Source: Flavobacteriales bacterium (GTDB lineage: Bacteria > Bacteroidota > Bacteroidia > Flavobacteriales_F > PHOS-HE28). Taken from it: a stretch of DNA of 64,000 nt. The stretch is taken from assembly GCA_019638115.1 (NCBI GenBank), contig JAHBUK010000003.1, forward strand, positions 248,001 through 312,000, given 5' to 3'. Below the pieces are notes generated by a model. The model saw only the letters and a program-made list of their open reading frames with translations, searched no databases and was not told the DNA's origin. A program made the translations under genes and the position numbers. Each line of letters starts with the position of its first letter. Positions within the stretch are counted from its first letter, which is position 1. This document shows, one piece after another, positions 18,967-32,963 of the stretch.

Positions 18967-19533
18967 TCCCACCCTTCAAATCCTCGATCCCTACGCGCTC
19001 TGCGGAGTACTCCTTCGGTATTGCCCAGGGACGGTGAAACCTTCAGCAAAGGCACCACCGCTACGCCTACTCTGAGCGGTCCTGAGCGAAAGTCGAAGGG
19101 CGAAGAGTAGGCTACGAAGAGCATTTGATGTTGGCCCGTTGAAGCACCCATCAACCCGCTTCCCGCGCGATCAGTGATCCTCCCGCCGGAGGCCCTTCCG
19201 AAAGCCCCTCATCACGCCACTTTCCGAGGGTGTGCAACGCGCTTGCGCCCTACGGCCGCGCGGTCTGCGCGTTGTTAACCGATCGTGAAAAGAAAACACT
19301 TGCACGGATCGTTGCGCGATCCCGCCCGCGTCAGTTCTAAGGAACTTGGCCGTGTTGAAAACTCCGGAAAGTTGGTCCACGTTCATCCTTGTCCACCCCT
19401 CCACCACGTGCCAACTTTGTAACCCGCCGACGACGCATTTCCAGCCGCCGACGGAACCACCATCAAGCCCGAAGTAGTCGAACAAGGGGGACTTCTCCCA
19501 ATGGATATCCCTTCCCCCGAACGAAGCAACACC
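18967..19533. other. 567-base intergenic region upstream of nrdB
   Basis: No gene seen. It contains a 9-bp hairpin (GCCTACTCT/AGAGTAGGC, 19065-19073 and 19104-19112) enclosing TCCTGAGCGAAAGTCGAAGG, a common type of small intergenic repeat. The nrdB-proximal part carries AT-rich words (GTTAACCGATCGTGAAAA near 19276, GTGTTGAAAAC near 19352) that could be control sites. No NrdR-type box was recognised. Confidence 0.6.
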
Positions 19534-20571
19534 ATGAGCACCAAGACCAACGTACCCCAACTGAGCCTGGAGGATGTCCTCCCCGCCAACGTGGAAGCCA
19601 ACAACGAACCCCTGCTCAAGGAGAACAAGGACCGCTTCGTCATCTTCCCCATCCAGCACAACGACATCTGGCAGTTCTACAAGAAGCACGAGGCCGCCTT
19701 CTGGACCGCCGAGGAGATCGACCTGCATGCCGACCTGGTGGATTGGGCCGACAAGCTCAACGATGACGAGCGCTACTTCATCAAGCACGTGCTGGCCTTC
19801 TTCGCCGCCAGCGACGGCATCGTGAACGAGAACCTCGCCGAGAACTTCCTGCACGAGGTGCAGTACCCCGAGGCCCGCTTCTTCTACGGCTTCCAGATCG
19901 CCATGGAGAACATCCACAGCGAGACTTACAGTCTGCTGATCGATACCTACATCAAGGACCCCATCGAGAAGGACAAGCTGCTGCACGCCATAGACACCGT
20001 GCCCTGCGTGGGCAAAAAGGCCGAGTGGGCCCTGCGCTGGATCGAGAAGGGCGGCTTCGCAGAGCGCCTCGTGGCCTTCGCCGCCGTGGAGGGCATCTTC
20101 TTCAGCGGCAGCTTCTGCAGCATCTTCTGGCTCAAGAAGCGCGGCCTCATGCCCGGCCTCACCTTCAGCAATGAACTGATCAGCCGCGATGAGGGCCTGC
20201 ACTGCGACTTCGCATGCCTGCTCTACACCAAGCACCTCATCAACAAGCTGCCCAAGAAGACCGTGGAGGCCATCATCCGCGATGCCGTGGAGATCGAGAA
20301 GGAGTTCGTGACCGACGCACTGCCCGTGAACCTGATCGGCATGAACGCCAAGCTCATGAGCCAGTACATCGAGTTCGTGGCCGACCGCCTGCTGGTGGAA
20401 CTCGGCAACGAGAAGATCTACAACGCCACCAACCCCTTCGACTTCATGGAGATGATCAGCCTGCAAGGCAAGACCAACTTCTTCGAGAAGCGTGTGGGCG
20501 AGTACCAAAAGGCCGGCGTGCTCAACCAGGACAAGGAGCAGGGGAAGTTCACGCTGGATGCGGATTTTTAG
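19534..20571 (+). CDS. nrdB: ribonucleotide reductase class Ia beta subunit, eukaryote-like
   Basis: A 345-residue R2 subunit that houses the diiron-tyrosyl radical needed to make deoxyribonucleotides. Visible ligands and radical site: Asp94 ([12 protein letters not shown]), Glu125, His128 and Tyr132 (MENIHSETY), and a later Glu/His set including [13 protein letters not shown]. The C-terminus FTLDADF, which docks into the large subunit, is the same as that of animal R2 proteins. An in-frame ATG at 19501 would add 11 residues; the ATG at 19534 fits the family better. It is followed by nrdA after 370 bases, in the same direction. Confidence 0.96.
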
Positions 20572-20757: not shown

Positions 20758-20941
20758 TCGCCCACTATTCACATTCCCCGGTTGAACAACTCGTGATCGA
20801 GCACCGGATCAAACGACCCCGCAGGGCCCCATCTTGGGAACCCTGTCACTGACAGAAAAACCAACACACCGCGGAGCGGGAGCCGAGCGGTCCACACAGA
20901 TAAGGCGAGGTCTGACTCGCCGCAAACAAAGAGAAAGAAGC

Positions 20942-23353
20942 ATGTACGTAATCAAGCGCGACGGCCGCCGGGAGGCAGTGAAATTCGACAAGATCACCGC
21001 CCGGGTGAAGAAACTCTGCTACGGACTGGATCCCATGGTGGATGCCACCCAGGTGACCCTCAAGGTCATCGATGGCATCTTCGATGGTGTTACCACCACC
21101 GAGCTGGACAACCTCACCGCCGAGGTGGCCGCCACCATGACGGTGAAACACCCCGACTATGCCCTGCTCGCCAGCCGCATCGCCGTCAGCAACCTGCACA
21201 AGAACACCAAGAAGTCCTTCAGCGAAGTGATGAAGGACCTCTACAGCTACGTCGATCCCAAGACCAACGCCAAGGCATCCCTCATCGCCGAGGATGTCAT
21301 GGACATCATCCGCAAGAACGCCGACCAGCTCGATAGCGCCATCATCTACGATCGCGACTTCAGCTACGACTACTTCGGCTTCAAGACCCTGGAGCGCAGC
21401 TACCTGTTGCGCATGCACGGCAAGGTGGTGGAGCGCCCCCAGCACATGCTCATGCGCGTTAGCGTGGGCATCCACAAGAACGACCTGGAGGCCGCCATCA
21501 ACACCTACAACAGCCTCAGCGAGGGCTGGTACACCCACGCCACGCCCACGCTCTTCAACGCCGGCACGCCCAAGCCGCAAATGAGCAGCTGCTTCCTGCT
21601 GCAACTGAAGGACGACAGCATCAGCGGCATCTACGACACCCTGAAGCAGTGCGCCCAGATCAGCCAGAGCGCCGGTGGCATCGGCCTCAGCGTGCACAAC
21701 CTGCGCGCCAAGGGCAGCTACATCAAGGGCACCAACGGCACCAGCAACGGCATCGTGCCCATGCTGCGCGTGTTCAACGACACCGCCCGCTACGTGGACC
21801 AGGGCGGCGGCAAGCGCAAAGGCAGCTTCGCCATCTACCTGGAGCCCTGGCACGCCGATGTGTTCGACTTCCTGGAGCTGAAGAAGAACCACGGCAAGGA
21901 GGAGATGCGCGCCCGCGACCTCTTCTACGCCATGTGGATCCCCGACCTCTTCATGAAGCGCGTGGAGCAGGGCGCCGAGTGGACCCTGATGTGCCCCAAC
22001 GAGTGCCCCGGCCTGGCCGACACCTGGGGGGCCAAGTTCGAGGAGCTGTACGAGGGCTACGAGGCCGCTGGCAAGGGCCGCGGCACCGTGAAGGCGCAGG
22101 ACCTCTGGTTCAAGATCCTGGAAAGCCAGATCGAGACGGGCACGCCCTACATCCTCTTCAAAGACGCTGCCAACGGCAAGAGCAACCAGCAGAACCTGGG
22201 CACCATCAAGAGCTCCAACCTCTGCACCGAGATCATCGAGTACACCAGCCCCGATGAGGTGGCCGTGTGCAACCTGGGCTCCATCGCACTGCCCAAGTTC
22301 GTGCAGAAAGGCAAGTTCGACCACGACCAGCTCTTCAAGGTCACCTACGAGCTCACGCGCAACCTGAACCGCGTGATCGACCAGAACTACTACCCGATCC
22401 CCGAGGCGCGCCGCAGCAACATGCGCCACCGCCCCATCGGCATCGGCGTGCAGGGCCTGGCGGACGCGTTCATCCTGATGCGCCACCCCTTCGACAGCGT
22501 GGAGGCCAAGGTGCTGAACCGCGAGATCTTCGAGACCATCTACTACGCCGCCATGACCGCCAGCAAGGACCTGGCGAAGGAGGAAGGCACCTACGAGACC
22601 TACGCCGGCAGCCCGGTGAGCGAGGGCGTGTTCCAGTTCGACATGTGGGGTGTGAAGCCCAGCGACCGCTGGGAGTGGGACGTGCTGCGTGAGGAGGTGA
22701 AGAAGCACGGCGTGCGCAACAGCCTGCTGCTGGCCCCCATGCCCACCGCCAGCACCGCCCAGATCCTGGGCAACAACGAGTGCTTCGAGCCCTACACCAG
22801 CAACATCTACACCCGTCGCGTGCTGAGCGGCGAGTTCGTGGTGGTGAACAAGTACCTGCTGCGCGACCTGGTGAAGCTGAACCTCTGGGGCGAGGACCTC
22901 AAGAACAAGATCATCGCCAGCAACGGCAGCGTGCAGCACATCCCGGAGATCCCCCAGAACCTGAAGGACCTCTACAAGACCGCCTGGGAGATCAGCCAGA
23001 AGGTGATCATCGACATGGCCGCCGACCGCGGCGCCTACATCTGCCAGAGCCAGAGCCTCAACGTGTTCATGGAGAACGCCAACTTCGGCAAGCTCACCAG
23101 CATGCACTTCTACAGCTGGAAGGCAGGCCTGAAGACCGGCATGTACTACCTGCGCACCAAGGCCGCCACCGACGCCATCAAGTTCACGGTGGACAAGGCC
23201 AAACTGGCCGAACCCGCCAACAGCAAAGCAGCAGTGCCCGCCGAAAAGGTGCGCGAAGCAGCCATGGCAGGCAGCAACAGCGCCGAAGAGGCCGCCGCAC
23301 AGATCGCATGCTCGCTGGATGATCCGGAGGGGTGTGAGATGTGTTCGGGGTAG
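20942..23353 (+). CDS. nrdA: ribonucleotide reductase class Ia alpha subunit, eukaryote-like
   Basis: An 803-residue R1 subunit that reduces ribonucleoside diphosphates. An N-terminal ATP-cone ([18 protein letters not shown]) gives allosteric control. Active-site cysteines appear in [17 protein letters not shown] and VAVCNLGS, and the substrate/radical region in [19 protein letters not shown]. The C-terminal redox pair is GCEMC. Long stretches such as [20 protein letters not shown] and [16 protein letters not shown] closely resemble animal R1. The start is the ATG at 20942, where the ATP-cone begins. It forms one holoenzyme with NrdB. Confidence 0.97.
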
Positions 23354-23470: not shown

Positions 23471-24190
23471 TCACAACCTAAGGCGGTCCCACAAATCATT
23501 GAAATGGGTTACTTCGTTATTGTCTCGCAAAGTTGTCAAGTCAGTGTATTCGAGCAAGTTCGCAATGCGATTGGACTCGTCCCTGCTCTTTGTATAGCTT
23601 TTGCCAAATCTGTTGCAGACAGCGTTCAGCAAGAGTGCAGGTCTGTAAACTTCCCTTTCAAAGTTTTTCCTCAACCCGTCCACATATAGGTCGGTATGTT
23701 CCCTATCGTCCTTAGCACCAGTCAGACGCATAAGCAAAGTGGGCATGGACAGATACCAAGCTTCAATCTCCATTCGCGAAAAGCAGAGGTGCTTGTCTGA
23801 ATTACAAACAACACGTGAATCAAACAAGTCACGTTGCCTAGTAATCATTTCTGCAATCAACTTCTCATCGATAAGTCCTGCAGATATTTCGTCGTACTCC
23901 TGGGAGTAGATATCCCTTAGGCCAACTACTAAGTCAAAACCACCCTGATCGAGAAAGCGGCTCCTTTCAGCGGCTCTACTTATTACAGCATCCCCATTGG
24001 TGCATATGATTTGATAATCGAATTCATATACTCCACCAGAGTCGAATTTGTAGGGGACATCAAGAAGGTTCGAACTGTGAAGTTCAAGACAGCAAATATT
24101 CACGTTCGAGTAATTGTGGTGCTTTAGAAGCATCTCTCTGATAAGGCACAACTCTGTGTGCCCCTCCACGAACAGTGCTACCCTCAGCAT
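23471..24190 (-). CDS. TOPRIM-like nuclease candidate (DUF4276-like), partner of the adjacent ATPase
   Basis: A 239-residue protein. The N-terminus LRVALFVEGHTELCLIREML fits a TOPRIM fold: a beta strand, catalytic-type Glu9, then a helix. A second acidic cluster, LVVGLRDIYSQEYDE (87-101), could be the metal site, and EIEAWYL (141-147) resembles a motif conserved in DUF4276-like proteins. Its ATG overlaps the ATPase stop as TGATG. The region is visibly AT-richer than its neighbours. Family placement is by motif only. As part of an ATPase-TOPRIM pair it is a candidate effector of an anti-phage system. Confidence 0.7.
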   Translation of the reverse strand: MLRVALFVEGHTELCLIREMLLKHHNYSNVNICCLELHSSNLLDVPYKFDSGGVYEFDYQIICTNGDAVISRAAERSRFLDQGGFDLVVGLRDIYSQEYDEISAGLIDEKLIAEMITRQRDLFDSRVVCNSDKHLCFSRMEIEAWYLSMPTLLMRLTGAKDDREHTDLYVDGLRKNFEREVYRPALLLNAVCNRFGKSYTKSRDESNRIANLLEYTDLTTLRDNNEVTHFNDLWDRLRL

Positions 24191-25287
24191 CAGTCAGCGT
24201 TAAGGTAATTAGAACTGAAGATATCAAAGGGAGCTAGGCCAGACAATCTAAAGTTATTAAACACATCAGGGTGGCTTACTGCGCTCATTCCAGAAACTTC
24301 AGTGCCTTTTTTCCTTAGGATGAGCCAATGCTTCAAGCTAACCTGATCGAGGAAGAAGTTATGATTTGAAGTCAAAACTGCTTGAATTGATGAATCCTTG
24401 AAATATCCTAACAGGAACGTCGCTAACCTCCTCGCCCTGTCATAATCGAGACCCTCACCGACATCATCAACCATTATAAGGCTTGGCTGAATTTTAACCT
24501 TCATGTATTGCAGATAGACAGCGATGGCGATAACTCTGAACATGCCCTGCGATAAGAGGCGTTGTTCAATCGGGTATAACAAACCCTTCTCTTTGACCGT
24601 AATTTTCGGAGCACCTGAGATTATCTTTACATCAATCTGTTCAACTTCATATCCGAGAGCATTCAAGGTAGTGCAAACGATATTACGGTCGGCCTCAGAG
24701 AGTTCCGTCTGAAGTATTGTGGCGACATCATCAATTCCTTTTGCTTTAAGGGATCTCCCGTCGTCCGTCATGAAATCAGTGGAGTGCAACATACCAAACT
24801 TGAACAAGCGTGCATTTGAGGCAAACTGGTACAAATCTTCGAAATATGGATACTCGACTTGATCTCTACGGTAGTTCATCACGAGCTTGTCGCTCGGTGG
24901 CGCCACGGTAACCATGCCTTTCGCCGCATGTGAATAAAGGCTGGCGTTCTTCCCAGTTCTCCTCATCACATCAATCTTGTCGATCAGCAAACTTTCGTAT
25001 ACCTCTCCATCCTTAGTACCAATACTGTAGTCATAGGACTGCTTATTAAACGTAAACGATACGCTCCAATGACCAAAGAAGACAGTGGTGTTTCCCGTGA
25101 TCATCTCACACAGTGCTTCGATTGCGCGAAGTAGTCTTGATTTGCCGGTAGCATTCTTTGCAACAACGAAATTGACGCTGTCTAGCTGCACATTGGAGAT
25201 GCTCCACTGCTCAGACCTGGCGCTCGTCTCATGACTGTATGCGAAGCGAGTGATCATTGTCGTAGTTGCTAAGATGCGTGGTTCCAC
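24190..25287 (-). CDS. ABC-type AAA ATPase (AAA_15/21-like), defence candidate
   Basis: A 365-residue cytosolic ATPase. Walker A is AKNATGKS (43-50). The ABC signature is LSQG (245-248), followed by MFR. Walker B is SLIMVDDVGEGLD with Asp274-Asp275. The switch His is in TSNHN (His309). This is the full set of an SMC/ABC-like AAA protein as found in OLD, AbiL, PARIS, Septu and retron-associated ATPases. A TAGATTTG promoter element ends 13 bases before the ATG at 25287; an ATG at 25257 is also possible. It is coupled to the TOPRIM-like gene downstream. The specific system type cannot be settled from sequence alone. Confidence 0.82.
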   Translation of the reverse strand: MEPRILATTTMITRFAYSHETSARSEQWSISNVQLDSVNFVVAKNATGKSRLLRAIEALCEMITGNTTVFFGHWSVSFTFNKQSYDYSIGTKDGEVYESLLIDKIDVMRRTGKNASLYSHAAKGMVTVAPPSDKLVMNYRRDQVEYPYFEDLYQFASNARLFKFGMLHSTDFMTDDGRSLKAKGIDDVATILQTELSEADRNIVCTTLNALGYEVEQIDVKIISGAPKITVKEKGLLYPIEQRLLSQGMFRVIAIAVYLQYMKVKIQPSLIMVDDVGEGLDYDRARRLATFLLGYFKDSSIQAVLTSNHNFFLDQVSLKHWLILRKKGTEVSGMSAVSHPDVFNNFRLSGLAPFDIFSSNYLNAD

Positions 25288-25308: not shown

Positions 25309-25480
25309 ACCAAGTCGACGGCGCTCAGACCCCTTGTTGCCTATTAAGCCTCCTGTTGCCGCGAATCTATGACCAGTGGCTGTGCTACAGCCGCAATTCC
25401 CATCTGCGCTTAGCGAGGCCGGGATCTTAGAGTATATGGCTACACTTGACTAGCCTCATCTGTGCGTAGCGCGCCCCCCT

Positions 25481-25562
25481 GCTGCGCGTAGCGTGGCCGT
25501 ACTATGAGCGTAGCCTGTGGCTGCGCTCGATAAGAGCAGGACCATGGTAGCCTGCGGCTACC
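25481..25562. repeat. GTAGCC hairpin repeat, copy A
   Basis: Contains GCTGCGCGTAGCGTGGC, then the hairpin GAGCGTAGCC-TGT-GGCTGCGCTC (25506-25528), then GGTAGCC-TGC-GGCTACC (25546-25562). The first hairpin is near-identical to copies at 27656-27679 and 29064-29086. A shorter half copy lies at about 25459-25474. The surrounding 25288-25617 gap holds no gene. Confidence 0.8.
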
Positions 25563-25617
25563 TAGTCATCCAATCCTCGATCGTATCATGAGCAGCGTCG
25601 AAAGGCAACTCGGATAG

Positions 25618-26451
25618 TCACTTTTTATACCGCAAGTAGAAGCTCTTTCGGTTCTTCCTGGGTTTCTCGTAAAGAACTAAACCATCCGGGTCGCGGCCTA
25701 TAGGGTTGCCCTCGAAGTGGCGGAATGACATATCACTGATGCTTGATAGCCAGAACGAATCGTTGATACTCAGCGGAGCATTCATGTTTTCCGTGAATGC
25801 ATAGGCAATGAATAGTCGGAGGCGTAGGGGAGAGGATGTTCGGTCGAAGCTGGACGTCTTGATCTTTTCCTGCTGACCGCGTTTCACGTAGCTATCCTCA
25901 AGGATGGTTTCCGAACGACCCTCTACCGGGTACAACAGATCGGTGAGGAATGTGAAACGTTCGAGACCGATGTATGACTTCGGCGGTATCGAGGTGATTC
26001 GTTCGTTGGTAACAATGGTCCCTGTGGTGATCGCGACGGAATACTGGCTGCCAATGGACTGAGTAAGCCACCCCCAATTGAACCCGTTCCCTGAGGAAGA
26101 CTTGGAAGTTTGATGGGAGTAGGAGCTCCCCTTGCTGGTTGAAGAGATGTCAACAGCATCTCTCCACAGCTCAACTTTCCTGTCATTCACGATAAAGGCG
26201 GAATTCTTCCAGTCGATGAACAACTGCCGGTCGGTCTTATTGAAGATCACGCAGGCGAGCTTTCCACCTTCTGCCCAGAAAGAGTAGGCTATCAGCAAGG
26301 TGTCGTTGTCAGAGATCCACTGCCCATCGACGTGAGGCACGTTGTCGCTGTTGGTATCATAGACCAGGATGCGGGTTTGGGTGCAACTGGTGAAAGTCAA
26401 CGTGGTTGCGATGAAGGCAGTGGGAAATAAATATCGGCGCATCGCTTTCAT
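25618..26451 (-). CDS. hypothetical lipoprotein
   Basis: From the ATG at 26451 this gives 277 residues. The signal sequence MKAMRRYLFPTAFIATTLTFTSC ends in a lipobox with Cys at residue 23. The frame opens 20 codons further upstream, without signal-like sequence, so the later ATG is chosen. The mature part is mostly beta, with a Ser-rich linker (STSKGSSYSHQTSKSSSGNG) near the middle and a basic C-terminus (EKPRKNRKSFYLRYKK). No family recognised. It sits in the accessory region between two hairpin repeats, and its composition is AT-richer than the core genes. Confidence 0.72.
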   Translation of the reverse strand: MKAMRRYLFPTAFIATTLTFTSCTQTRILVYDTNSDNVPHVDGQWISDNDTLLIAYSFWAEGGKLACVIFNKTDRQLFIDWKNSAFIVNDRKVELWRDAVDISSTSKGSSYSHQTSKSSSGNGFNWGWLTQSIGSQYSVAITTGTIVTNERITSIPPKSYIGLERFTFLTDLLYPVEGRSETILEDSYVKRGQQEKIKTSSFDRTSSPLRLRLFIAYAFTENMNAPLSINDSFWLSSISDMSFRHFEGNPIGRDPDGLVLYEKPRKNRKSFYLRYKK

Positions 26452-26714
26452 GAAGGCTAAAGTAGCGGTTGGGATTGCCAACTCAACCACTGCAGTGTCT
26501 TCCGTCTTCAAACCTCCGCATGGGTCTCCCGGGGTACGAGGGGACCCTGCGCCCTCCAGGAATGGTCCATACCCATATCAGCGCATTGCGAGCCGCACGC
26601 TATCGTAGCCTGCGACCAAGCTCGACACGGACCTGAGCATGATAGCCATGACCACCTCACGCTTCTTTCCGTGCAGCATGTGTTCGTGCTTTGCGCGAAG
26701 CTCAGTGGAGTACA

Positions 26715-27497
26715 CTACTCCCGCACGAATTTCCGGCTGATCGATCCGTAAGCTCCGTGTGCCACGAGTACGTACAGCCCACTACCCAGGCTGCTTGTGG
26801 AGAACTCAAGGGTGGAACGAACGGAGGTCAGATCGAGCACTAGCCTGCCTTGTGCGTCGAGCAGACGGGCTTCGCGAATGGCCTGCCCATCGCTAGTGGC
26901 CACGTGCACCAGGTCGCCTTGTTGATGCACGGAAAGTGTTGGTCGTTCCAGCTCGTTCACTCCGACCGCTCGGTTCAGTTCCAGATCATCGAAAGCAGCT
27001 AAGGAGAAGATCCCGAAGTCCGGCATCTCTCCAGGGTAGAGGATGACCACAGCGGTATCGCCTTCATTCAATGCGACCGTCCAGGTGACGGACTCATGCA
27101 CCCATGGATAGTCAAGCGTGCCCGCCTCGACCAGGGGAGTGAGCATCCCGTTGGACAAGGTGCCCAAGGCGAGGAATGCACCGGTGATCGGATGGCCCAT
27201 CTGGTTCCGCAGCCATCCCGAGAGGGTGATCACTTCCCCGTCCAATGCTTCAGGAAGGCGCTGGAACATCCGGGGAAACGTGCATGGGTCGTTGTTGCTC
27301 GCCATCAACGTGAGCGCCCACGTGCCGCCATTGGGTGGGGTATTGCTGATGAACATGGGAGTGCCACAATTCCATTCCCAGCCTTCCGAAGAACTCCCTT
27401 CCGCATACTCGAACCCACCATTCACAAGGAGGGATTGTGCGGGCATGAAACCGGGTAGCAGGAAGGTGCAGCACATAAGGGAAGTAATTAGTCGCAT
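26715..27497 (-). CDS. secreted protein with T9SS type A sorting domain
   Basis: A 260-residue protein with a signal peptide ending near FMPAQS. The N-terminal part (LLVNGGFEYAEGSSSEGWEW and what follows, about 22-170) looks like a carbohydrate-binding-type jelly-roll (NGGFE start, WVHESVTWTV). The last 75 residues form a type A sorting domain ending GLYVLVAHGAYGSISRKFVRE. It would be exported by Sec, then sent across the outer membrane by T9SS. CATATTTG, one base off the -7 consensus, lies 31 bases upstream of the start. No enzymatic motif is seen, so the role is probably adhesion or binding. Confidence 0.82.
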   Translation of the reverse strand: MRLITSLMCCTFLLPGFMPAQSLLVNGGFEYAEGSSSEGWEWNCGTPMFISNTPPNGGTWALTLMASNNDPCTFPRMFQRLPEALDGEVITLSGWLRNQMGHPITGAFLALGTLSNGMLTPLVEAGTLDYPWVHESVTWTVALNEGDTAVVILYPGEMPDFGIFSLAAFDDLELNRAVGVNELERPTLSVHQQGDLVHVATSDGQAIREARLLDAQGRLVLDLTSVRSTLEFSTSSLGSGLYVLVAHGAYGSISRKFVRE

Positions 27498-27631
27498 GGC
27501 ATAGGGCTTATGGTTTGACTGCCTGCATCAAATATGCCCTGCTCAATGAGCGAGCGGAAGCCTTAACCGAGCAAAGGCACCATAAGCAAGTAGCAATGGT
27601 CGCGCTGCTTGGAGCAAAGGGTGCATCCCAT

Positions 27632-27684
27632 CTGCGCGTAGCGTGGCGTGAGTCTGAGCGTAGCCTGTGGCTAGGCCTCGACAA
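27632..27684. repeat. GTAGCC hairpin repeat, copy B
   Basis: CTGCGCGTAGCGTGGC, followed by GAGCGTAGCC-TGT-GGCTAGGCCTC (27656-27679) and CGACAAG. It is the same order as copies A and C, with an imperfect right arm. The second hairpin of the unit is not clear here. Confidence 0.75.
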
Positions 27685-27754
27685 GTGAAGGAACAACCAG
27701 CTCTTATGGCCACCCAAGCCCAAGCATTCAATACATGATATAAGTCTGTCCGAG

Positions 27755-27762
27755 TATCTTCG
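27755..27762 (+). promoter_or_regulatory. -7 promoter-like element (TATCTTCG)
   Basis: The TTCG variant of the -7 octamer, 38 bases before the chosen ATG at 27801 and 14 before an alternative ATG at 27777. Confidence 0.4.
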
Positions 27763-27800
27763 TTCACCCAACTGCGATGATATCGCTCCAAACCACTGCT

Positions 27801-28982
27801 ATGCGGAAACTATCCACTTGCCTGCTTGCCTCTTTGCTGATCATGTCCGTTCATGGTCAATGGGTCCAGGTGCCCTCGCCGATCGCTGCGAACTTGTGGA
27901 ATATCGTGTTCCTCACTGAGGATCTGGGTTACATGAATAGCAATTCATTGATCCTGAAGACCATCGATGGGGGAGAGACCTGGACCACGACCACCCATCA
28001 GGGTAATGTGGGTGGGAATTTCTCCTTCCCGAGCAGTACGGTGGGTTACATGGCCGGATTTTACGATGTGATCAAAAAAACGACGGATGGGGGTAATACG
28101 TGGACCACACTGACGATCAATAACCAGGCGTTACCCATCCGCGCGGTGAGCTTCCCGGATGTGAATACTGGCTACGTGGTGAGCCTCAACGGTTTCATAC
28201 GCAAGACCACCAATGGCGGCGCCACCTGGACGGCCCAAACAGCCCCCGGGAACCCACAGTTCAGGCATGTTCATTTCGTGAACGTGAACCTCGGTACGGC
28301 CATCGGTGAGAATGGAGCGATCCGCCGTACCACGAATGGAGGCGCCACATGGTCTTCCGTAACTGGGGCACCATCCACGTTTTTGAACGACATTTTCTTT
28401 TTGGACGAGAACATCGGCTTCATCGTAGGTGGCCAGGGCACCATGCTGAAAACAACCAACGGCGGTGCGAACTGGGCCCTGATGAACACCGGCACCACTG
28501 AGTGGCTGGATGCCGTATGCTTCCGCAACGAAATGGAAGGGTATGTGGCAGGCACCAGCGGGTTCATGATGAAAACAATGAATGGAGGACTTACCTGGAC
28601 CACAGAAGTCAATCCGTTCTACTTCAGTACACAACACATCAACGATATCGCTTGGGCAAACGGTCGTTGGATCACCATTGGTGACGCAGGGAGGATCACC
28701 CGTTCGGGAGAAGAAGTCGGCATTGACGATCCATCACTGGAAGGCGCTTTCGACATTGGCCCGAACCCTGCATCTAGCCATGTGAAGATCCGCGCGCGTG
28801 AACAGCAGGGTCACTTATGTACAGTGCGTGTGTTCGATGCTGGCGGTGCCTTGGTGCGTACCACCGTCCTGGGTGCGGATCAGGTCCACTTGGAAGTTTC
28901 AGACCTCAGCGATGGGCTATATGTGTTGGAGGTGAACACGGGTTCATCCAGTGCACGCATGAAGCTGATGGTTCAGCACTGA
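27801..28982 (+). CDS. secreted YCF48/BNR-repeat beta-propeller with T9SS type A domain
   Basis: A 393-residue protein. The signal peptide MRKLSTCLLASLLIMSVHGQ is why the ATG at 27801 is preferred over 27777. The body has at least six repeats of about 45 residues with the motif KTTNGGATW or KTIDGGETW (variants IRKTTNGG, LKTTNGG, MKTMNGG), each followed by a hydrophobic strand. This is the YCF48/photosystem II stability-like propeller, common in Bacteroidota secretomes. The last 80 residues are a type A sorting domain (FDIGPNPASSHVKI to GLYVLEVNTG, ending MKLMVQH). A surface-exposed binding role is inferred. Confidence 0.88.
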   Translation: MRKLSTCLLASLLIMSVHGQWVQVPSPIAANLWNIVFLTEDLGYMNSNSLILKTIDGGETWTTTTHQGNVGGNFSFPSSTVGYMAGFYDVIKKTTDGGNTWTTLTINNQALPIRAVSFPDVNTGYVVSLNGFIRKTTNGGATWTAQTAPGNPQFRHVHFVNVNLGTAIGENGAIRRTTNGGATWSSVTGAPSTFLNDIFFLDENIGFIVGGQGTMLKTTNGGANWALMNTGTTEWLDAVCFRNEMEGYVAGTSGFMMKTMNGGLTWTTEVNPFYFSTQHINDIAWANGRWITIGDAGRITRSGEEVGIDDPSLEGAFDIGPNPASSHVKIRAREQQGHLCTVRVFDAGGALVRTTVLGADQVHLEVSDLSDGLYVLEVNTGSSSARMKLMVQH

Positions 28983-29040
28983 TCCGCTGCTGACCTCCAC
29001 GTATTCAGCAAACTCGTCGAAATAAACATATCCCCCGTCT

Positions 29041-29141
29041 GGCCGTAGCGTGGCGGTGGATCTGAGCGTAGCCTGTGGCTACGCTCGACAAGCTCCGAAG
29101 CATGGTAGCCATGCCTTGCGGCAGGCAGGCCTGTGGCTACC
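29041..29141. repeat. GTAGCC hairpin repeat, copy C
   Basis: CCGTAGCGTGGC leads to a perfect 10-bp hairpin GAGCGTAGCC-TGT-GGCTACGCTC (29064-29086), then GGTAGCC...GGCTACC (29104-29141) with a longer loop than in copy A. A related hairpin GCGCGT-A-GCC-GTA-GGC-A-ACGCGC follows at 29198-29220. The whole 28983-29282 gap is made of such elements and holds no gene. Confidence 0.8.
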
Positions 29142-29282
29142 TACCCAGTGTTTCGTACAGGATGCGCAGTCACAGGCTACGGAGAGCCTACGTTGTTGCG
29201 CGTAGCCGTAGGCAACGCGCAGAATGCGTTCCTGCCTGGTACACGATGAACGCACCTATGCAAGGTCAACCCATCCTCAACT

Positions 29283-30062: not shown

Positions 30063-32963
30063 ATGTCTCTGTCCGGCTCCCTGCGTCCGCTCTTCTTCAC
30101 ACTGCTGCTGCTTGTTGCCGGCACTTCGCGTGCACAGGTCTTCCCCTTCACCAGCGGCCCCATTCCGCTGTGTGCTACCAGCACCTTCACGGCCAATGTG
30201 AGCGGGGTGGGCACACTGATCACACCGGACGGGTGGAACTGGGGGCCGTACATCGACAACGTGGTGCTGAACATCACCACGGACCATCCGCAAACACTAC
30301 AGATATCGCTTACTTCACCACAAGGCACCACCTTGTTGCTCTCGGCCTTCAACGGAGCGGGCGGCGAGAATTACACGAATACCTCGTTCCCCTACTGGGG
30401 TGGCTCGAACATCACCACGGCCTCAGCGCCGTTCACAGGCTCCTACAACCCGCAGGGGGGGAGCTTGAGCGTGTTCGACTGGGAGAACGCGGATGGCATC
30501 TGGACCATCACCGTGGTGGATACTGCCTGCGCTTCCAGTGGCCCGGGCCCCGGTAACGGCTGGACACCCGGCTGGTTCAATGGCGCTTCGTCCGGAGGGG
30601 GGGGATTCGCCTTCGGTTTCAGCAGCCCGCCCCCGCCTTGCGGAGGCTGGATGGGCGATCAATTGGTGTACATCTGCCAAGGGCAGACCGTCGATATCCT
30701 GAGCTACTACGCTACCATGTATCCCGGGATTCCCTTTACGGTCTATGATGGCAATTATGTTCCGGTGGCCGATCCAACGTCCGTAGGTACTTCCGACTGG
30801 TATTACGTGGAAGGGATGGATCCATGGGATGGATGCTACTACTATGGCAACTATCAGCTCATTGTGAACCAGCCGATCTCCCTTGGCCCGGACCAGGTGG
30901 TGGAGCGCTGCAGCAGCGATGGTCCGGTGAACCTCGTCTCCTTGTTCACCCTTACGGGTCTGGGTACTACCTGGTCGCTGGATGGGTCGATGATCACGAG
31001 CGCAATGGCCGCTTCCGCAACTGCCCCCGGCGTGTACCAGCTGATCGCCACCAACAACGGTGGTTGCAACGACACGGCCTTGGTAACGCTGATCGTAACA
31101 TCCGACCCCGACCTTGGTCCGGACCAATCACTGAGCCTCTGCCCGGGCGAAAGTGCCGATCTGGGCGCCTTGTTCATCACCGCAGGCTACTCGGTGGAAT
31201 GGACATTCAACGGTGCCGTTCTCTCGAACCCGGATGCGGTAAGCGATGCGGGTGTGTATACGCTGGTGGCATCCACGGCCTCGGGTTGCTCGGACATGGC
31301 CGAGGTGACCGTTTCGGCAAGCACTGCACCTGCCTTGGGTGCCGACCAGGCGCTCGATGTCTGCGCCAACGAACTCGTTGATCTCACCGCACTGTACAAC
31401 ACCACCGGTGGCACGGCCGCGTGGACGTTTGCTGGTGCACCTGTTCCCAACCCTGCGGCCGTGAACACGGCAGGCACCTACGAGTTGGTGTTGTCCAGCG
31501 CGGGCAACTGCACGGACACGGCCCTGGTGACCCTGAGCGCCTTGCCAAACCCGGACCTCGGTGCTGATGCCGCTGCTGGGATCTGTGCCGGCAATGCGGT
31601 GGACCTGAACGCTGTCATTCCCGCAACGGGCCTCACCGCATCGTGGACCCTGGCCGGTGTTGCCGTGGCCGACCCCGCTGCCGTAGCTGTGGCCGGCACC
31701 TACACCCTGATCGCCACCAATGCTGCCGGCTGCAGCGATACGGCCTTGGTGGTGGTGAGCGTAGCGGCCAACCCCGCGCTTGGCCCGGACCAGTCCCTTA
31801 CGGTTTGTGCAGGCACAGCGGTGGACCTCACCGCCCTTTACGCCACCGGAGCAGCCACCACCAGTTGGACGATGAACGGTGTTGCGGTCGCTTTGCCGGG
31901 CGCGGTTACGAGCAGCGGCACCTACACGCTCACCGCCACCAATGCGGCCGGTTGTTCCGCAACAGCGGCGGTGCTCGTGCAGGTGGATCCATCGCCCGCG
32001 CTGGGTGCTGACCAAGTGGTGGGCAGTTGCGCCGGGTCCGGCATGGACCTCACCGCGCTCTACAACACGGCGGGTCTCACCACCGCGTGGACTTTGGCAG
32101 GCGCAGCCGTGTCCGATCCCGCTGCCGTAAGCCAGTCGGGCAACTATCAACTGGTGGTCACCAACGGATTCAACTGCACGGATACCGCGGTGGTGACATA
32201 CACGGCGTTCGTCAACCCGAGCTTGGGTGCCGACCAGGTCTTCTCGCTCTGTCCCTGGCAGTCGGTGGACCTCACCGCCGTGTTCCCGGTGTCGGGCATG
32301 AGCGCCACCTACACGCTGAACGGTGTTGCCGTGAGCGATCCCACGCAGGTGGTGGATGCGGGTAGCTACGTGATCAGTGTTGTGGATGCCAACGGCTGCA
32401 CCGCTGTGGCAACGGCCACCGTGCTGCCCATTGAATGCCTGTGCGTGGCCGACTTCGTGGAGGATGCGCGCTGCATGCAGGAGCCGGTGCAGTTCACGCT
32501 GCTGGCGGATTCCACGGTGCTTGCGGCCTATTGGGACTTCCACGGTGCAGGCATGAACGCCACGGGTACGGAGCCCGAGGTGCGCTTCCTGCGGCCCGGC
32601 GAACTGCTGGTGACGCTGTACGCCTCGCTCAGCTGTGGCGAGGTCGCGGTGGAACGCATCGTCAATGTGCCGGACTGCTCCGACTCGTGTACGGTGTACA
32701 TCCCCTCGGCCTTCACCCCCGATGGCGATGGCATCAACGATCGTTGGACCTGGGGCGGGGAGTGCCCACCGGAGGATTTCTCGGTGATCGTCTTCGATCG
32801 TTGGGGCAAGGCGGTGTTTGAGTCCAAGGACCCTTGGCGCGCTTGGGACGGCACCGTTGGCGGCAAGGAAGTGCCCACGGGTGTTTATGTATACCGTGCC
32901 GCGTACCGGCTGCTCTACCAGGAGCACAAGGAAGTGTCCGGCTCCATCACGCTCATACGGTAG
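30063..32963 (+). CDS. repeat-built surface protein with T9SS type B (gliding-motility-associated) domain
   Basis: A 966-residue secreted protein. The signal peptide ends near TSRAQ. About residues 40-170 resemble a proprotein-convertase P domain (LQISLTSPQGTTLLLSAFNG to WENADGIWTITVVD). Seven Ig-like repeats of about 75 residues follow, each opening LGPDQ or LGADQ, then a Cys (SLCPG, DVCAN, ICAG). The last 85 residues are a CHU_C/type B sorting domain (YIPSAFTPDGDGINDRWTW, VIVFDRWGKAVFES, ending GSITLIR). It is probably an adhesin or motility-related surface protein; no catalytic residues are seen. Confidence 0.9.
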   Translation: MSLSGSLRPLFFTLLLLVAGTSRAQVFPFTSGPIPLCATSTFTANVSGVGTLITPDGWNWGPYIDNVVLNITTDHPQTLQISLTSPQGTTLLLSAFNGAGGENYTNTSFPYWGGSNITTASAPFTGSYNPQGGSLSVFDWENADGIWTITVVDTACASSGPGPGNGWTPGWFNGASSGGGGFAFGFSSPPPPCGGWMGDQLVYICQGQTVDILSYYATMYPGIPFTVYDGNYVPVADPTSVGTSDWYYVEGMDPWDGCYYYGNYQLIVNQPISLGPDQVVERCSSDGPVNLVSLFTLTGLGTTWSLDGSMITSAMAASATAPGVYQLIATNNGGCNDTALVTLIVTSDPDLGPDQSLSLCPGESADLGALFITAGYSVEWTFNGAVLSNPDAVSDAGVYTLVASTASGCSDMAEVTVSASTAPALGADQALDVCANELVDLTALYNTTGGTAAWTFAGAPVPNPAAVNTAGTYELVLSSAGNCTDTALVTLSALPNPDLGADAAAGICAGNAVDLNAVIPATGLTASWTLAGVAVADPAAVAVAGTYTLIATNAAGCSDTALVVVSVAANPALGPDQSLTVCAGTAVDLTALYATGAATTSWTMNGVAVALPGAVTSSGTYTLTATNAAGCSATAAVLVQVDPSPALGADQVVGSCAGSGMDLTALYNTAGLTTAWTLAGAAVSDPAAVSQSGNYQLVVTNGFNCTDTAVVTYTAFVNPSLGADQVFSLCPWQSVDLTAVFPVSGMSATYTLNGVAVSDPTQVVDAGSYVISVVDANGCTAVATATVLPIECLCVADFVEDARCMQEPVQFTLLADSTVLAAYWDFHGAGMNATGTEPEVRFLRPGELLVTLYASLSCGEVAVERIVNVPDCSDSCTVYIPSAFTPDGDGINDRWTWGGECPPEDFSVIVFDRWGKAVFESKDPWRAWDGTVGGKEVPTGVYVYRAAYRLLYQEHKEVSGSITLIR

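Follow-up and report, generated by a model that had tools for sequence, protein, structure and literature searches.

Three copies of a hairpin-bearing repeat lie between genes, within 4 kb of one another, in a 64,000-nucleotide stretch of Flavobacteriales bacterium DNA (contig JAHBUK010000003.1, positions 248,001 to 312,000; hereafter the window), downstream of nrdA, the gene for the large subunit of ribonucleotide reductase. What kind of element are these hairpins, and why are they gathered at this one place? An original prediction, made from the letters of the window, regarded them as REP/MITE-type elements (REP, repetitive extragenic palindrome; MITE, miniature inverted-repeat transposable element) whose clustering beside variable genes suggested that they take part in rearrangement or act at mRNA ends. 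Our analysis indicates that they are very probably a REP-like family (or REPIN-like, from REP doublet forming hairpins) of an ancestral REP-associated tyrosine transposase (RAYT) locus, whose RAYT gene appears since to have been lost in the lineage of the window. That ancestral RAYT/repeat locus, of which they would be the remains, best explains why they cluster.

Hairpin copies in the window

The three copies, termed A, B and C, are all present as described. With up to three mismatches, GAGCGTAGCCTGTGGCTACGCTC matches the window four times (at 25506, at 27656 and on both strands at 29064), with no match in 100 shuffles, and GTAGCCNNNGGCTAC with at most one mismatch gives five matches against 0.10 expected. 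The hairpins are genuine, occur far more often than chance would allow and belong to one repeat family.

Copy C (29032-29230, + strand) is a complete element that matches across most of the model of a profile at 173 bits, the profile itself including copy C. It consists of a lead (29032-29062), a unit termed y (29063-29140), a spacer and an inverted unit termed z (29166-29221). Covariance model R1, for which the copy C z unit was among the building units, recovers both y and z, and the fold of the copy is lower than those of all 200 shuffles (z score −3.86). Hairpin 1, GAGCGTAGCC-TGT-GGCTACGCTC, occupies 29064-29086 on the + strand, as found by mismatch search and shuffles, and is followed on the same strand by hairpin 2 (29105-29140). 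Alignment and the covariance model place hairpin 3, the second hairpin of the z unit, at 29166-29180 and hairpin 4 at 29198-29220, both on the − strand. Hairpin 4 forms the right-hand end of the element beside a conserved C|T, so that what had been listed as a separate, related hairpin at 29198 is the right end of copy C.

Copies A and B are left halves of the element. Copy A (25475-25564, +; profile and covariance model) has the lead and the y unit (25505-25561) without the z half, and copy B (27625-27697, +; profile, and 27.4 bits with the covariance model) has the lead and a damaged hairpin 1, the second hairpin having been lost. A half copy had also been reported near 25459; repeat material does lie there, but it is a decayed left-half relic at 25396-25453 (+; profile 22.6 bits, E 3.5e-6) plus a stray lead recognised by eye at 25454-25475. 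A second decayed left-half relic lies at 26569-26669 (+; profile 24.4 bits, E 9.9e-7).

The loop of hairpin 2 in copy C holds a 21-nt palindromic insert, TGCCTTGCGGCAGGCA (about 29111-29131), which has a single match within the window. Similar inserts occur in copies from two other genomes of the genus (G038 and G042; loci L055 and L054), and the palindrome is perhaps a second mini-repeat nested inside the first.

Anatomy of the complete element

An alignment of 13 complete or near-complete copies from the window's own genome and related genomes defines an element of about 180 nt. The lead, CTGCGCGTAGCGTGGC, is followed by hairpin 1 (consensus GAGCGTAGCC-TGY-GGCTACGCTC) and, after about 17 nt of linker, by hairpin 2 (GGTAGCC-TGT-GGCTACC) and a spacer. 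The plan then recurs inverted, with hairpin 3 (GTAGCC-ACA-GGCTAC) first, then a linker whose opposite strand reads CGTAGGCTC, and finally hairpin 4 (GCGCGTAGCC-GCA-GGCTACGCGCAG). Two units, y and z, therefore make up the element, each with two hairpins and the one inverted relative to the other; they differ in their linkers and mostly also in whether one stem position is A-T or C-G. A different palindrome stands in place of the hairpin 4 core at locus L060 and in one copy of L055, with the foot largely kept.

A RAYT gene beside the repeats in relatives

A search with the Pfam Y1_Tnp model, covering part of the genus, found matches inside the repeat clusters of genomes G010 and G011. RAYT genes of the clade linked to the repeats are intact in G010, G011 and G043 and truncated or broken in G025, G009 and G035. 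Thus the transposase that the original prediction proposed to look for is present beside the repeats in relatives, though not found in the window's own genome (see below).

The gene and the repeats are closely joined. In G010 the 185-amino-acid RAYT frame (L052:7516-8073) has its GTG start within the last hairpin of a z unit (the first ATG comes 10 bases past the unit), and 21 bases after the stop codon the z unit of a complete element begins. The ATG of the G011 gene comes 25 bases after a z unit, and a further z unit lies downstream of the gene. Units stand on both sides of the RAYT in G010, G011, G009 and G025, the genes in the last two being remnants, and the broken copy in G035 lies beside a unit that is degenerate by eye.

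The G010 protein scores 94 bits against NF047646 (REP-associated tyrosine transposase; cut-off 80), and all 16 aligned RAYT proteins match this model at E ≤ 0.001, the score being set against the cut-off for G010 only. Invariant in the 16 rows are H65 and H67 of the HUH motif, the catalytic tyrosine Y147, the asparagine N151 and an SS pair, whose roles we assign by analogy with those in passages of PMC6006769. The motifs read NHVH, then YTHQNP, YIHQNP or YIHNNP in the three intact members, and SSA. The nearest solved relative is TnpAREP 4er8.

In a tree of 34 RAYT rows those at the nrdA locus form one clade with support 100/100, comprising G010, G011, G043, G009, G025 and the broken G035, three of these six rows being fragments. 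Repeat-flanking is counted as three changes on this tree, owing to a label on the G008 RAYT and an unlabelled broken G035 row. The G008 gene was considered as repeat-flanked and rejected: a single weak 22-bit match about 2.2 kb from it was taken as chance.

The presence of an enzyme of this type bears on the MITE half of the REP/MITE label, under which the repeats would be non-autonomous and derived from a DDE transposon, with CTGCGCGTAGC as the terminal inverted repeat at either end. The outer ends of complete copies do both start with CTGCGCGTAGC or close to it, but inverted ends already follow from the inverted arrangement of y and z, and the enzyme gene beside the copies is of the Y1/HUH kind, which acts on single strands. 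The MITE label is therefore unsupported and such an origin hardly credible, no search for DDE transposases having been made, whereas the repeats are REP-type in kind, with a RAYT beside them in relatives. An integron-like attC array was likewise dropped because the linked enzyme is a Y1/RAYT, no integrase search having been made.

Many genomes of the genus carry several RAYT genes. Repeats shared between both flanks, or within the upstream flank, occur at 21 of 30 compared RAYT loci (L107-L136), and at one (L124, G024) the flanks contain long arrays that repeat in tandem about every 127 bases.

Distribution, placement and orientation of the repeats

The further genomic copies whose absence would have spoken against a repeat family do exist. 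The window's own genome (4.06 Mb, 9 contigs) has five scoring units, namely copy A, both units of copy C and a pair of adjacent left halves on contig C2; copy B falls under the threshold of the genus-wide count. Three weak BLAST matches in this genome (C3:498054, C1:195293 and C2:493157) are short and partial and were not counted as copies. Scoring units occur in 20 of 45 genomes of the genus, that is, in 19 of the 44 others, with 1 to 12 per genome. The remaining 25 have none at E ≤ 0.001, under stricter filters that may miss weak copies. Units also occur elsewhere in the genome, away from the RAYT, in G010, G011, G043 and G009, the dispersed G010 copies lying at 1.55, 2.07, 2.35 and 2.56 Mb.

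Beyond the genus, a BLAST search of 53 genomes returned a single match (G077; 22 bases, E 0.006), taken as chance. A contig scan for exact hairpin 1 found it on seven contigs, all titled as Flavobacteriales or Bacteroidota metagenome-assembled genomes. Phage and plasmid collections gave no match for a 201-base query at E ≤ 0.001.

Placement is strongly extragenic. Only 3 of 40 elements lie mostly within open reading frames of at least 120 amino acids, compared with 33.8 expected; this set omits two L063 elements, near-identical to G010 loci, and the weak L054:13246. Many copies, including copy C, stand between converging genes, while copy B lies between two divergent gene starts. At nine nrdA loci all 27 elements score best in the direction of nrdA, although these are not 27 independent events.

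Extragenic placement, with many copies between converging genes, is also what might be expected if the hairpins were host regulatory RNA or DNA structures (bidirectional terminators, 3′-end stabilisers or protein-binding sites) whose nearness to a RAYT is incidental. However, the only terminator-like site called between 25200 and 29400 is not at a copy, and no copy has an Rfam match at E up to 1, the one sub-threshold match lying outside the repeats. Moreover, copy B lies between gene starts, the repeats occur at the ends of RAYT genes and are tied to one RAYT clade, and 25 of the 45 genomes do without detected units. We judge a host-structure origin very unlikely. The role at mRNA ends that had been suggested for the hairpins is not borne out, given the position of the terminator-like site and of copy B, nor is a role in rearrangement, since their clustering follows from an ancestral RAYT locus.

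A common locus downstream of nrdA

In the window nrdB (19501-20571; Pfam PF00268) and nrdA (20834-23353, +; PF02867) precede the repeats, and a gene for a type IX secretion (CHU_C) protein (30063-32963, +; PF13585) lies beyond them. Comparison of window proteins with fetched loci shows that nrdA, the syntenic anchor, adjoins repeats in eight other genomes (G009, G010, G011, G025, G038, G040, G042 and G043). All six RAYTs of the clade lie downstream of nrdA, which is the locus of the window repeats. The CHU_C gene serves as an anchor on the other side in some genomes: it lies beyond the repeats in G009, G010, G011 and G040, is on the same stretch as repeats or a RAYT at L052, L060, L061, L062, L065 and L151, and has a homologue on another contig in G042. 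A homologue search of G025, G038 and G043 gave no match.

nrdA was found in 29 of the 45 genomes and its downstream stretch read in 24, newly fetched stretches being about 1.5 to 19.5 kb long. Units are present there in 9 of the 24, and none was detected at E ≤ 0.001 in the other 15. Among these 15 unit-free loci, G035 has the broken cognate RAYT, and three have RAYTs of other lineages (G008:C17, G006:C19 and G032:C279). The stretch downstream of nrdA is possibly a RAYT hot spot.

Gene content downstream of nrdA varies among genomes. In the window a DUF4276-like gene (below the Pfam cut-off) and an AAA ATPase gene follow nrdA directly (23471-25287, −); PADLOC matches of the ATPase include the AbiLi, HEC-01 and AriA models. 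The two are possibly a defence pair in a stretch of low guanine-plus-cytosine (GC) content, which is 0.514 at 24-28 kb.

Probable loss of the enzyme

No RAYT of the clade was found in the window's own genome, which is 100% complete; the best match there is 27% identical and lies elsewhere in the genome, and tblastn detected none in the window. The same search gave no match in G038 and G040 and only a distant one in G042. The genus thereby offers a natural series at a single locus, from an intact RAYT with repeats (G010, G011 and G043), through a truncated or broken RAYT (G025, G009 and G035), to repeats for which no RAYT of the clade was found (the window's own genome, G038, G040 and G042). 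The REPIN persistence model, as set out in passages of PMC8049555, leaves open the fate of REP populations after RAYT loss.

A candidate cleavage boundary

TnpAREP of E. coli and Stenotrophomonas cuts at CT beside a hairpin, according to passages of PMC8266576. CT directly abuts the stem at its 5′ foot in 36 of 42 units, a set that omits the one L063 unit of 43: in 17 of 21 units with A at column 3, in 16 of 18 with C and in all three others. CT makes up 5.7% of dinucleotides in the background there. The base before the stem is C in all 18 C-type (z-like) units, while the bases outside look unrelated by eye, so that the conserved sequence at the outer end of z stops at C|T. By analogy with the known enzymes, C|T at the stem foot is the likely RAYT cleavage boundary.

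These observations suggest how the locus might have arisen. The inverted pair of units in a complete element would be recognised as single strands by the cognate RAYT, an HUH/Y1 single-strand nuclease, which would cut units at C|T at the hairpin foot and copy or rejoin them elsewhere. The repeat family and its RAYT would have settled downstream of nrdA early in the history of the genus. After the presumed loss of the RAYT gene from the lineage of the window, rather than its never having been present, copies A, B and C and the relics would no longer be served and would be decaying.

Evidence that weighs against a lost RAYT locus

A number of observations weigh against this account. Among the 20 unit-bearing genomes a RAYT of the clade was found in only five (three intact, two remnants); short remnants could escape detection and several assemblies are incomplete, so that this scarcity may in part reflect incomplete assembly. 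In G043 units occur only on the 3′ side of the RAYT with no clear unit upstream, although a unit remnant may survive as a short GTGGCTACC upstream of the gene. The number of units per genome is very low for REPs, and the hairpin lacks the canonical unpaired GTAG/GTGG guide at its 5′ foot. A preference for one replication strand was considered and dropped: the placed G010 elements share one orientation, but dnaA is off the GC-skew switch, and local skew at both clusters of the window's own genome runs the opposite way.

Insertion itself is undemonstrated, since no pair of occupied and empty sites, from which a junction or a target duplication might have been read, was found among the compared loci. 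When 500-base flanks of 42 listed elements (those with long enough flanks) were compared with fetched loci, no empty site emerged; the flanks matched one locus in duplicate, further occupied sites or, over part of their length, unrelated sequence. The G010 site at 2.35 Mb had no match in G044, an assembly 83% complete.

Covariation lends the stems thin support. Across 43 units, 96.7% of 688 cells are paired compared with 92.5% when shuffled, and 30 cells are changed on both sides of the stem compared with 12.2 in shuffles. However, only two pairs carry changes on both sides, a number reached by 483 of 500 shuffles, and the count of pair types is reached by 66 of 500. Most double-changed cells represent the fixed difference between y and z, and with so few pairs involved there are few independent compensatory events.

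Other points concern plain duplication. Clusters in the same orientation could equally be explained by tandem duplication, and units within a cluster resemble one another slightly more than do those of different genomes (y, 0.838 versus 0.812; z, 0.879 versus 0.812; nine pairs each, with copy A sorted as z by a crude rule despite its y-type linker). On such a view, local tandem duplication or recombination would account for all of the window copies, with no part played by a RAYT, and the copies would be direct repeats that passively allow gene turnover downstream of nrdA. The shared orientation of copies at an nrdA locus, the differing gene content downstream of nrdA and the lower GC content at 24-28 kb all agree with this. 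Yet copies elsewhere in several genomes, such as G010, need dispersal, and the excess likeness within clusters is only slight. We therefore consider duplication alone unlikely, though it deserves serious attention, and prefer a RAYT locus whose enzyme probably made the copies and was later lost.

A second repeat family with the same fold plan

Another multi-hairpin repeat family (CACTCGCTCGCG / GGGCCTCCGGCCC) occurs beside RAYTs of another lineage at L147 (G032), L146 (G006), L123 (G020) and L120 (G023). In G032 (L147) and G020 (L123) the RAYT is preceded by a repeat that shares no sequence with the present family, the best blastn match of the G032 copy being 7 bases, and yet the plan is the same: a C-rich start, a lead hairpin, hairpins 1 and 2, a spacer, inverted hairpin 3, hairpin 4 and the RAYT start. 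The G032 repeat and its RAYT also lie downstream of nrdA. The shared plan is seen clearly in these two repeat families only, and other RAYTs of the genus, for example that of G008, seem to be flanked by single hairpins.

Tentatively, and with some doubt, one might regard the region downstream of nrdA as a place where RAYTs have long landed or been kept, at least three lineages of them occupying it in different species, each with its own repeats. In these the fold plan and not the sequence would be conserved, and elements could outlive their enzyme across species. If this were true of more lineages, the fold plan would be conserved while the repeat sequence turned over.

Comparison with known systems

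Passages of PMC6006769, PMC8266576 and PMC8049555 describe the REP/REPIN elements (or BIMEs, bacterial interspersed mosaic elements) of E. coli and Pseudomonas and their RAYT (TnpAREP), and the comparisons below are with those passages. Like these elements, the present repeats are extragenic hairpins with an adjoining RAYT, occur as inverted pairs of two subtypes in the manner of Y and Z REPs, pair one RAYT clade with one repeat family and have CT beside a hairpin. Unlike them, they have two hairpins per unit and four per element, occur at 1 to 12 scoring units per genome (five in the window's own, far from a high dispersed copy number) with a cluster held at one locus in nine genomes, and carry GTAG inside the stems rather than as an unpaired guide at the foot, with GCAG in some copies. 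In many copies GTAG or GCAG does occur in the z linker, about 7 nt ahead of hairpin 3.

Hairpin 2 resembles the double-foot REPs of subclass 2.4 (PMC6006769) in that its 5′ foot carries GTAG and its 3′ foot CTAC, but it has only 6 base pairs and is coupled to a second, longer hairpin. A closer parallel is RAYT group 5, or TnpAREP subclass 2.6, which is described in passages of PMC6006769 from Bacteroidetes as flanking ‘atypical secondary structures’ that lack a GTAG consensus. The present RAYTs follow the subclass 2.6 pattern (NH[LIV]H, YIH[QN]NP and an SS extension), as judged by motifs and not by the authors' profile: they have NHVH, Y[IT]H[QN]NP and the SS extension, are about 180 amino acids long and come from a Bacteroidota host. 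Their repeats, too, are atypical RAYT-flanking structures without the GTAG consensus, and have further copies elsewhere in the genome. Because neither an unpaired guide nor a high copy number was found, we file the repeats with the subclass 2.6 kind, whose repeats could be compared by description only and may overlap with the present family.

Among the matches listed in the literature searched (titles, abstract starts and passages), no description of this repeat was found. What is new is an unusual anatomy within the known REP/RAYT kind, so that the window hairpins look like fossils of a system whose kind is already known. They give a concrete anatomy and a likely cleavage boundary to the Bacteroidota RAYT repeats that the literature has termed atypical.

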